Below are positions 54,893 to 56,915 of a DNA stretch of 64,000 nucleotides, piece after piece. Origin of the DNA: Microbacterium sp. H1-D42 (GTDB lineage: Bacteria > Actinomycetota > Actinomycetes > Actinomycetales > Microbacteriaceae); assembly GCF_022637555.1 (NCBI RefSeq), contig NZ_CP093342.1:3224001-3288000 (forward strand), given 5' to 3'. The notes under the pieces are model-generated. The model had not been told where the DNA came from. It searched no databases and saw only the letters and a list, made by a program, of their open reading frames with translations. Position 1 is the first letter of the stretch. Every line of letters starts with the position of its first letter. The position numbers were made by a program, and so were the translations under genes.

Positions 54893-55609
54893 GTGCTGAC
54901 GAGAAGGATCTTCGGATGGTCGCGTCTGCTCGCTGCGGTCGTGTGCATCGTCGCGCTCGTGCATCGGATGCTGTGGGGCATGGGCGGTCAGACGATCGCC
55001 GGCGACAACTTCTTCGCCTACCTGACCATTCAGTCCAACGCTGCCTTCGCGGCACTCGCGATCGTCGCCGGCATCGTCGCGCTGCGCACTGACGAGGATC
55101 CGCGATGGCTGACCACCGCGCGAGCACTGGTACTGAGCTGGACGATCACCGCGGGTCTGGCGTTCGCGTTGATCGTCTGGCAGGCGGGCGTGCGGGGCAT
55201 CCCGATCACGGTGCCGTGGTCTGATGTGGTGCTGCATTTCGTGCTCCCCGCCTGGTCGATCGTCGCCTGGGTGCTCGGCCCTGGGCGACGTGGGGCGTCG
55301 TGGTGGGTGGTGCCGGCGGTGCTGCTGTATCCGATCGCGTGGGGGATCTTCACGATCTGGCGCGGAGCGGTGATCGGCTGGTACCCCTATTACTTCCTCG
55401 ACTCGCGGCAGGTGTCAGGGCTGCCGGAGATGATCGTCAGCTGCGCTGTCGCGCTGTCGATCTTCGCGCTCGTCGCGGCAGCACTGGTGCTGCTCAGCCG
55501 CGCCCACCCGACAGCGGGGGTCGCGCGGGTCAGCCCTGGTCCGGCTCGAGCGGCGGTGCGAAGAACGTCAGTGACGCCAGTGCGGCGACCTTCGCATCCC
55601 GTGAGCTGA
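54893..55609 (+). CDS. Pr6Pr-family membrane protein
   Basis: This 238-residue protein has six or seven hydrophobic segments and is typical of Pr6Pr-type actinobacterial membrane proteins, with FFAYLTIQSNAAFAALAIVAG, LHFVLPAWSIVAWVLGP, YPIAWGIFTIWRG and YPYYFLD. The GTG at 54893 is preceded by AGGAGGA at the right distance. The last 27 or so residues after the final helix overlap the 3' end of the opposite-strand flavin oxidase gene by 80 bases. Function unknown. Confidence 0.85.
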   Translation: MLTRRIFGWSRLLAAVVCIVALVHRMLWGMGGQTIAGDNFFAYLTIQSNAAFAALAIVAGIVALRTDEDPRWLTTARALVLSWTITAGLAFALIVWQAGVRGIPITVPWSDVVLHFVLPAWSIVAWVLGPGRRGASWWVVPAVLLYPIAWGIFTIWRGAVIGWYPYYFLDSRQVSGLPEMIVSCAVALSIFALVAAALVLLSRAHPTAGVARVSPGPARAAVRRTSVTPVRRPSHPVS

Positions 55610-56915
55610 GTGCGGCGAACTGCGCAGCGGCGCCGCCGCCGACCAGACCGACGAGCACAGGCTCGCCGGTGACGGGCTGCAGGTTGAGCCATGTGCGGAT
55701 GAGACCGTCACCTCCGACGACGTGCCAGATGGTCTCGCCTGCCTCCCAGAACGGCTCGTCGAAGCGCATCCACACGGTCTCGAGGTACCCGGGGGCGAGG
55801 TCGGCGATGGCGCCGCGATGCTCGAACGGCAGGGCAGGTGCGAACTCGATGCCCTGCTGCTGCAGCACGCCGAGCGGGGCGGTGACGATGACGCGGTCGA
55901 ATGACAGCGACTCGCCCGTACCCATCCGCAGGCTGACGCCGCGCTCGTCGTACGCGACGCGCACGACGGGTGAGGCCAGCGTCACGTCGATCTCGGTGAG
56001 GAGCTCCTCGATGAAGGCGCTCAGGTCGCCGGTCAGCCCATTGAGGGCATCCGGCGCGAAGGCCGGCGGATACCAGCTGGATGCCAGGGTCGGGTCGGCC
56101 CCGCTGGTCGCGGCCAGCCAGGCCAGTGCTGCGGCGAGGGTAGGATCCGCCGGGTCGGCGCCGTTCTGCTCGAGCGCGTCGGTGATGGGCAGGTCTGCCG
56201 GCAGGCCACTGGCGCGCTCGACCGCTTGGATGATGGGCGTGCCGTCGACGGTGTCGGTCGCCCCTTCGGCCGACCAGCCGACGGCCGAGTCGAGACGGAT
56301 CCGCTTGTCGCTGATCGTGATGAGCCGGTCATCGAGCGCCGCGACATCCTCTTCGCTGATCAGCCAGGCGCCCAGCTGCACGGGGACGGGCCAGTCGTCG
56401 TCCACGGTGCTGAGGAGGCGGCCGCCGGTGCGCTCTCGGGCTTCGAAGAGGGTCACGGAGAGGCCTGCGTCACCGATGGTGCGTGCGGCGGCGACACCGG
56501 CGGCGCCGGCGCCGATCACGGCGATGCGCTCGGAATCGGATGCTGCCGCGAGCACGCCCATGCCCGCTCGGCGGCCCGAGTCGATGGAGCCGAGCACCGT
56601 GCCCGGGTGGACCGAGTCCGTCGCCTCTCCTGCGAAGAAGACCCGCTCCATGACCGGCGTCCCGAGGGTCTCGCGACGTTTGGGGTCGGAGCCTGCGGGA
56701 ACGTAGCTGACCGCACCGAAGGAGTAGGGGTCGGTCGACCAGGTCGACCGCGCCCAGCCTGCCGGGGCGGGCACATTGGCGGGCGCTGTGGGCTTCGGCG
56801 CCGGCGTGGCCGTCTTGGTCGGCTTCGGCTCCGGCTCCGGCGTGCATGCCGCGAGAAGAACCGCGACGGCGCCGGTGCCGGCACCGACGAGCAGAGTGCG
56901 GCGAGTGATGCTCAT
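55530..56915 (-). CDS. Flavin amine oxidase-family lipoprotein with circularly permuted domain order
   Basis: This 461-residue protein is probably exported by Tat (start ITRRTLLVG) and lipidated at Cys24 (LLAAC). After a Pro/Lys/Thr-rich linker comes WARSTWSTDPYSFGAVSYVP and RVFFAGEATDSVHPGTVLGS (about 54-119), which in normal flavin amine oxidases is the C-terminal FAD segment. Only then does the N-terminal Rossmann motif follow (IAVIGAGAAGVAAART, GxGxxG at 135-140, ERTGGR at 161-166). The substrate domain comes next, and the protein stops after LVGLVGGGAAAQFAALS, exactly where the moved segment would begin. Every expected FAD segment is therefore present in rotated order. Substrate unknown; amines or amino acids are likely. 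Confidence 0.88.
   Translation of the reverse strand: MSITRRTLLVGAGTGAVAVLLAACTPEPEPKPTKTATPAPKPTAPANVPAPAGWARSTWSTDPYSFGAVSYVPAGSDPKRRETLGTPVMERVFFAGEATDSVHPGTVLGSIDSGRRAGMGVLAAASDSERIAVIGAGAAGVAAARTIGDAGLSVTLFEARERTGGRLLSTVDDDWPVPVQLGAWLISEEDVAALDDRLITISDKRIRLDSAVGWSAEGATDTVDGTPIIQAVERASGLPADLPITDALEQNGADPADPTLAAALAWLAATSGADPTLASSWYPPAFAPDALNGLTGDLSAFIEELLTEIDVTLASPVVRVAYDERGVSLRMGTGESLSFDRVIVTAPLGVLQQQGIEFAPALPFEHRGAIADLAPGYLETVWMRFDEPFWEAGETIWHVVGGDGLIRTWLNLQPVTGEPVLVGLVGGGAAAQFAALSSRDAKVAALASLTFFAPPLEPDQG

Follow-up and report, generated by a model that had tools for sequence, protein, structure and literature searches.

A flavin amine oxidoreductase that is a likely natural circular permutant, borne on a predicted lipoprotein and conserved among actinobacteria

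A 64,000-nucleotide stretch of the Microbacterium sp. H1-D42 genome (contig NZ_CP093342.1, positions 3,224,001 to 3,288,000; hereafter the window) encodes, on its reverse strand at 55530–56915, a predicted flavin amine oxidoreductase lipoprotein of 461 residues with an ATG start codon, in which the segments of the flavin adenine dinucleotide (FAD) domain follow each other in rotated order. The protein matches the Pfam family Amino_oxidase (PF01593) with 147.9 bits against a cut-off of 19.8 (E = 7.2e-43), the match being split over three stretches. The C-terminal FAD segment, GxGxxG and GGR of this superfamily are all present, while the Rossmann-first order and the active-site lysine are absent, and the protein is a permuted branch of the PF01593 superfamily rather than a standard member. 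As a statement on the order of the chain, the permutation can be regarded as virtually certain from the sequences compared, and a natural circular permutation of the flavin amine oxidoreductase fold is the overall best explanation, and a likely one.

The N-terminus of the protein, MSITRRTLLVGAGTGAVAVLLAAC, comprises a twin-arginine-like signal and a lipobox (residues 1–24, MSITRRTLL...LAAC; 56844–56915, reverse strand as for all parts of this gene), recognized by the patterns ITRRTLL and LAAC with RR at residues 5–6 and LAAC at 21–24, and is followed by a Pro/Thr-rich tether (residues 25–46; 56778–56843) that was likewise assigned from sequence. The moved segment, which is C-terminal in canonical members, spans residues 47–119 (56559–56777) as delimited by structural-relative alignment and profile matches (see below). 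Its pattern is VPxP...W..TDP...RVFFAGEAT...GSIDSGRR. The tether is followed by VPAPAGWARSTWSTDPYSFG...RVFFAGEATDSVHPGTVLGSIDSGRRAG, then SERIAVIGAGAAG, and W59-S-T-D62-P-Y-S-F-G67, RVFFAGEAT (residues 91–99) and GSIDSGRR (109–116) all lie N-terminal of the GAGAAG motif (135–140). This motif belongs to the canonically N-terminal part of the protein, which was delimited in the same manner and runs from the Rossmann strand to the substrate domain (residues 130–461; 55533–56528). In this reading, the strand-helix segment that closes the FAD domain has moved to the front of the chain, a short linker joins it to the first Rossmann strand, and the permuted chain now ends in the loop ahead of the VPxP...W..DP motif.

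A phmmer search against PDB sequences identified LSD2 (4gu0) as the best solved relative, aligning in rotated order: query residues 128–169, 292–449 and 47–119 match chain residues 336–377, 527–691 and 699–771, respectively. As query residue 449 corresponds to chain residue 691 and residue 47 to chain residue 699, the old junction lies within 8 chain residues, and both ends of the permuted protein meet where the canonical chain runs through. To examine the order independently of permuted sequences, two hidden Markov models (HMMs) were built from nine canonical-order proteins only: segment A (349 positions), from the Rossmann region to just ahead of W..DP, and segment B (73 positions), from just ahead of W..DP to the end. 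On the open reading frame (ORF) of the window, L001, whose numbering runs 4 residues ahead of the start codon, segment B matched residues 60–128 (profile positions 2–70, E = 6e-22) and segment A matched residues 135–188 and 306–453. No second copy of segment B was found by HMM in the window protein or in any permuted ORF at E<1e-3. An earlier note, made from the sequence alone, had proposed a rotated order of the FAD segments, the presence of each segment once, and a protein stopping where its C-terminal segment normally starts; the LSD2 alignment and the canonical-only profiles bear out all three. Among the best 60 of 108 matching PDB sequences, the best stretch never began before profile position 109, and none of these was permuted.

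The same order was found in many other proteins. Both segments were detected at E<1e-3 in 140 classed ORFs, with B before A in 100 and A before B in 40 and a single segment B match in each, counts that are no census because the loci fetched were the best matches to permuted queries; one further ORF (L143, second frame) was left unclassed, and ORFs without either segment at this threshold were not counted. After removal of duplicates, 86 permuted and 37 canonical distinct sequences remained; Microbacteriaceae account for 74 of the permuted ones and other families of the same phylum for 12. The earlier note knew of no standard family member with this order; the order is not unique to the window protein. 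That two gene parts were joined by a faulty assembly or gene model, an objection that the note itself had raised, is a vanishingly improbable explanation: the order recurs within uninterrupted ORFs, 80 of 81 matching Microbacterium genomes have a match starting at query residue 1–3, the order was HMM-verified in the 100 ORFs (86 distinct), and the source genome assembly is a single contig and 99.99% complete. With relatives across genera, families and classes carrying the same order in many independent genomes, the objection fails, and the safest statement from these comparisons is that the permuted order represents a conserved, widespread actinobacterial subfamily of the amine oxidoreductase fold.

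Searches covered genome sets at the level of Microbacterium, the family, order, class and phylum, as well as a plasmid collection. In Microbacterium, 81 of 198 genomes gave a match at E<=1e-30, of which 30 were fetched as loci; two matching genomes, G103 (match from residue 113) and G108 (residues 1–129 only), do not show the permuted order. At the family level, 142 of 398 genomes matched at E<=1e-15, representing 33 of 85 genera, the weakest of these matches being possibly canonical, and the order-level search gave a match in 25 of 396 genomes. HMM-verified permuted proteins were also found in families f15 and f16 of the same order, in f37, f43, f48 and f51 of the same class, and in f68, f76 and f78 of other classes of the phylum. 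The f15/f16 members L084, L086, L087 and L088 are without a lipobox or clear twin-arginine translocation (Tat) signal and seem to begin near the moved segment; two of the four carry RR by a loose pattern, and all retain the lysine discussed below. When the permuted profile was used in the phylum search, which shows the order without recourse to motifs, the canonical gene of G956 matched positions 114–442 and then 37–113 immediately downstream, as did those of G1234, G1194 and G1183; the permuted genes of G1308 and G1267 matched 4–445 or 3–445 in a single run. In the plasmid collection, 8 records matched, none covering 80% of the query; the two from Haloarcula, for which coverage had suggested a permuted order, were inspected and rejected, both being of canonical order. 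Two viral-contig matches were likewise rejected as permuted candidates on account of their canonical order.

The origin of the permutation was addressed by phylogeny, for which all rows were put into a common segment order before alignment. Four order changes were required in a careful tree of 41 rows picked by hand, of which 26 were permuted and 15 canonical, and 0% of 200 bootstrap trees had a single change; a quick tree of 70 rows (41 permuted, 29 canonical), obtained by thinning 123 rotated rows by similarity, also required four changes. Both trees scatter the permuted rows among the canonical ones, count against a single origin and favor the alternative that the order arose several times, for example with the signal-less L084–L088 group apart from the Tat group. 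This alternative is nonetheless somewhat unlikely, as a single permuted clade was not rejected in the 41-row tree (log-likelihood difference 4.5, approximately unbiased (AU) test p = 0.41) and the breakpoint is alike throughout: the segment B match begins at profile position 2 or 3 in 85 of the 86 distinct sequences, and the linker between the segment B and Rossmann profile matches is 4–13 residues long (median 8). The chain also ends at the helix ahead of the VPxP loop in the permuted rows printed. In one permuted member, L085 (genome G561), the moved-segment match begins only at profile position 20. One origin of the permutation is thus compatible with the AU test, without being established by these sequences.

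Fusion with a foreign segment was considered as a source of the moved segment and is not favored. Segments A and B mostly rank the same canonical relatives as nearest, with rho values of 0.66–0.87 in 13 permuted proteins and of 0.76–0.80 in five canonical control proteins, which favors rearrangement within one gene over fusion. In most of the permuted proteins compared, the nearest canonical rows of both segments include L097, L101 and L093. The last of these and L094 are located on Haloarcula plasmids, have canonical order and an RR-type N-terminus, and rank with the canonical rows that lie closest to the permuted proteins. A tandem of two canonical-order amine oxidase ORFs was observed at L132 (G1225:C1:150766-153204), so that the Rossmann part of the second ORF comes after the end segment of the first and the permuted profile reads 37–434 across the stops; a tandem of this type is the kind of arrangement from which the permutation could arise. 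Tandem duplication with subsequent trimming is one conceivable route to the rearrangement.

In canonical members, the cofactor is contacted by the strand-helix segment with which the FAD domain ends. An alignment of 51 permuted proteins (A1) contained 20 invariant columns, of which 14 are FAD motifs of both segments: W59, D62, R81, R91, A95, G96 and E97 in the moved segment, and G135, G137, G140, E158, G164, G165 and R166 in the Rossmann and GGR region. Such invariance in both segments is what a retained FAD site predicts, and few columns of the middle region are invariant. Ratios of nonsynonymous to synonymous substitution rates (dN/dS; NG86, three relatives) were 0.12–0.21 for residues 47–125 and 0.23–0.29 for residues 126–455, rough values since dS exceeded 1 for residues 47–125; at the level of coding sequence, both segments are under purifying selection. 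An AlphaFold prediction from a 4-row alignment was too poor to show the fold (predicted local distance difference test score 32.1, predicted template modelling score 0.25) and gives no help to the proposed structure. Judging from the conserved motifs, an intact FAD-binding fold is nevertheless highly probable, and we infer that the moved segment would still pack on FAD in three dimensions.

The earlier note had described the protein as a Tat lipoprotein, and both motifs are indeed present here and in most relatives: by a loose pattern, applied to as many as 110 residues preceding the segment and so possibly beyond the true start in some rows, 84 of the 86 distinct permuted sequences have an RR motif and 75 have RR followed by a lipobox. 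The protein is therefore probably exported by the Tat pathway and lipid-anchored outside the cell, as predicted by motif pattern. Should the lipid anchor enter beside the FAD, as the earlier note supposed, instead of at the Rossmann strand, the permutation might matter mechanically.

The reaction of flavin amine oxidases with O2 is promoted by a lysine that is bonded to flavin N5 via water. In the rotated alignment of the 123 distinct sequences, this position is occupied by lysine in 36 of 37 canonical rows (R in L127) and in 11 of 12 permuted rows from outside Microbacteriaceae (R in L105). Among the 74 permuted Microbacteriaceae sequences, on the other hand, lysine is found in only 5 (L062, L067, L068, L071 and L072), the remainder having T (50), S (6), L (5), V (5), R (2) or A (1). 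The window protein has Thr380 in this alignment column (55776–55778). Read most simply, the column suggests that the permutation came first and that the lysine was lost later, in a single one of the families sampled. The name amine oxidase, used in the earlier note, is doubtful in the functional sense because the O2-activating lysine is replaced.

The lysine is termed nearly universal in the superfamily in the portion of PMC12224317 drawn on here, and the consequences of replacing it can be gauged from monoamine oxidase (MAO) A, as described in parts of PMC8009472. There, the K305S and K305M variants had 100- and 200-fold lower kcat, respectively; K305M was reduced normally by substrate, was reoxidized much more slowly by O2 and could be reoxidized by quinones. 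K305Q, in contrast, was as active as wild type, and Thr is not among the variants in those parts of the paper. These data bear on the possibility that the window protein is an ordinary secreted amine oxidase making H2O2 at the cell surface, with the permutation being neutral and Thr380 tolerated. The activity of K305Q would agree with this, as would the lysine kept by nearly all permuted relatives outside Microbacteriaceae and the account in PMC12224317, as far as the portion used extends, that most tested Tat-exported members without a nearby cytochrome gene are fast oxidases. We consider it unlikely in view of the K305S and K305M variants and of the T, S, L or V found at the lysine position in 66 of the 74 Microbacteriaceae members.

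The flavoprotein gene lies tail-to-tail with a gene on the forward strand (54893–55609, start codon uncertain) for a Pr6Pr family membrane protein (NCBIfam NF038065, 89.7 bits vs a cut-off of 30), with an 80-bp overlap between the two. The Pr6Pr protein has several hydrophobic stretches, and across 73 copies T45 and H115 are invariant and GWYPY.FLD is 99–100% conserved. The convergent arrangement recurs in 73 of 74 Microbacteriaceae loci, and in the exception, L032 (genome G038), Pr6Pr is located 1.9 kb off, beyond the locus edge. With E-value lines that were drawn after viewing the lists (Microbacterium, last kept 1.3e-50 and next 1.8e-28; other genera, 2.7e-34 and 8.2e-32), a close Pr6Pr orthologue (E<=1.3e-50) was found in 80 of the 81 Microbacterium genomes with a permuted-gene match and in 0 of the 117 without. 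The one genome lacking it, G108, has an assembly that is 79% complete and matches only part of the permuted gene. Pr6Pr proteins at a greater distance (1.8e-28 and weaker) were present in G108 and in 22 of the 117, bringing the genomes with a match at E<=1e-15 to 103 of 198. The two genes share a contig in 78 of the 80 genomes, at most 5.2 kb apart; the other two, G175 and G195, are draft assemblies in which the genes fall on separate contigs. Among single representatives of 80 other genera, 65 had some Pr6Pr match and 25 a strong one (E<=2.7e-34), 24 of the latter together with a permuted-gene match; permuted-gene matches without strong Pr6Pr also occurred in G209, at a contig end, and G228, where the match is weak. 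In two genomes the permuted gene is located between two Pr6Pr matches, at 1544459-1545106 and 1546532-1547188 in G273:C1 and at 681836-682459 and 684268-684909 in G222:C2. A function like that of AIG1/ADTRP (PF04750), considered for Pr6Pr on the basis of its residues, is not supported, there being no match in its own genome at E up to 10.

The tail-to-tail pairing with Pr6Pr and the usual loss of the lysine together make a dehydrogenase role the most likely one for the Microbacteriaceae enzyme, even if, inferred from lysine loss, tether and gene pair, it still falls somewhat short of probable. Tethered to the membrane on its extracytoplasmic side, the enzyme would act as an FAD dehydrogenase and, instead of producing H2O2, pass its electrons to an acceptor in the membrane, possibly a quinone, either directly or together with Pr6Pr. 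The retention of Pr6Pr where it is separated from the flavoprotein gene supports a joint function. A fuller scenario, in which an old permutation founded a distinct actinobacterial branch, and lysine loss and Pr6Pr recruitment in Microbacteriaceae then gave rise to a two-gene extracytoplasmic redox system with a lipid-tethered FAD dehydrogenase delivering electrons to or through Pr6Pr, is possible but can be put forward only tentatively.

Several observations weigh against the dehydrogenase role and the pairing with Pr6Pr. All five permuted Microbacteriaceae members that keep the lysine are accompanied by Pr6Pr, and K305Q of MAO A indicates that lysine loss need not abolish the use of O2 (PMC8009472, in the parts cited above). 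Pr6Pr was not found in the short flanks of the 12 permuted loci outside Microbacteriaceae, genome G226 has strong Pr6Pr with no flavoprotein in the surrounding 8 kb, and G235 has an intact permuted gene without Pr6Pr nearby. Genome relatedness and block loss of adjacent genes, moreover, make co-occurrence a weaker proof of joint function. Lysine loss could also mean a dead enzyme, and the protein might then be a non-catalytic pseudoenzyme that keeps an FAD-like fold and acts towards Pr6Pr as a binding or scaffolding subunit. The absence of lysine from 69 of the 74 Microbacteriaceae sequences, the close pairing with Pr6Pr and the scarcity of invariant middle-region columns are all consistent with such a subunit, which we nevertheless regard as rather unlikely, since the FAD motifs of both segments are invariant, something needless for a scaffold unless FAD is structural, and since substrate still reduces the K305M variant of MAO A normally.

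Beyond the gene pair, a Pfam scan of the window neighbours identified CrcB, TetR, TipAS/MerR and DUF4097 proteins, and no Pfam family for Pr6Pr. There was no cytochrome c gene among these scanned neighbours, distant cytochromes not being searched for. Two overlapping crcB-like genes (PF02537; 54047-54981, reverse strand) lie beside Pr6Pr, and ORFs similar to this pair, by appearance only, are found at the same place in M. esteraromaticum (L009). A MerR/TipAS-type regulator (PF13411, PF07739; 57065-57865, reverse strand) is encoded directly upstream of the permuted gene on the same strand. For the permuted loci outside Microbacteriaceae, BLAST comparison of about 1.5 kb a side in sets of 4 and 8 revealed no clear shared partner; L084 and L086 have two neighbours in common with each other only.

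To our knowledge, it is uncommon for a large, well-studied enzyme fold to occur in nature as a circular permutant. Conservation of the permuted branch suggests that relocation of the chain termini to the crossover from the substrate to the FAD domain is tolerated by the two-domain amine oxidase fold, and the permuted lipoprotein may be viewed as a natural design for tethering such enzymes. The replacement of the lysine would likewise constitute a natural test of the change from oxidase to dehydrogenase, and the pairing with a permuted flavoprotein offers a functional lead for the uncharacterised Pr6Pr membrane protein family. No report of a permuted flavin amine oxidase and no paper on Pr6Pr was found among open-licence papers, the only ones searched, which does not establish absence in print.

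Compared with the PF01593 superfamily (MAO, polyamine oxidase, LSD1/LSD2), the window protein has all segments, the FAD motifs and a Pfam score above the cut-off, but differs from standard members in its rotated segment order and the replacement of the O2-activating lysine. Actinobacterial and Haloarcula amine oxidases with an RR signal (L097, L101, L093), which rank among the closest canonical rows for most of the permuted proteins compared, have the normal order and the lysine. Tat-exported relatives have been demonstrated to be dehydrogenases, according to the portion of PMC12224317 cited above, and the window protein shares with these NicA2/Pnao-type amine dehydrogenases its predicted Tat export, a proposed poor use of O2 and an associated partner gene. 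The NicA2/Pnao-type enzymes, as described there, nearly always have the lysine and have a cytochrome c partner, whereas the window protein has Thr380, a Pr6Pr neighbour and a permuted chain; the letters "permut" do not occur in the main text of that paper. By the features compared the window protein is thus not a member of this group, but the outline of its action may resemble that of NicA2-type dehydrogenases.

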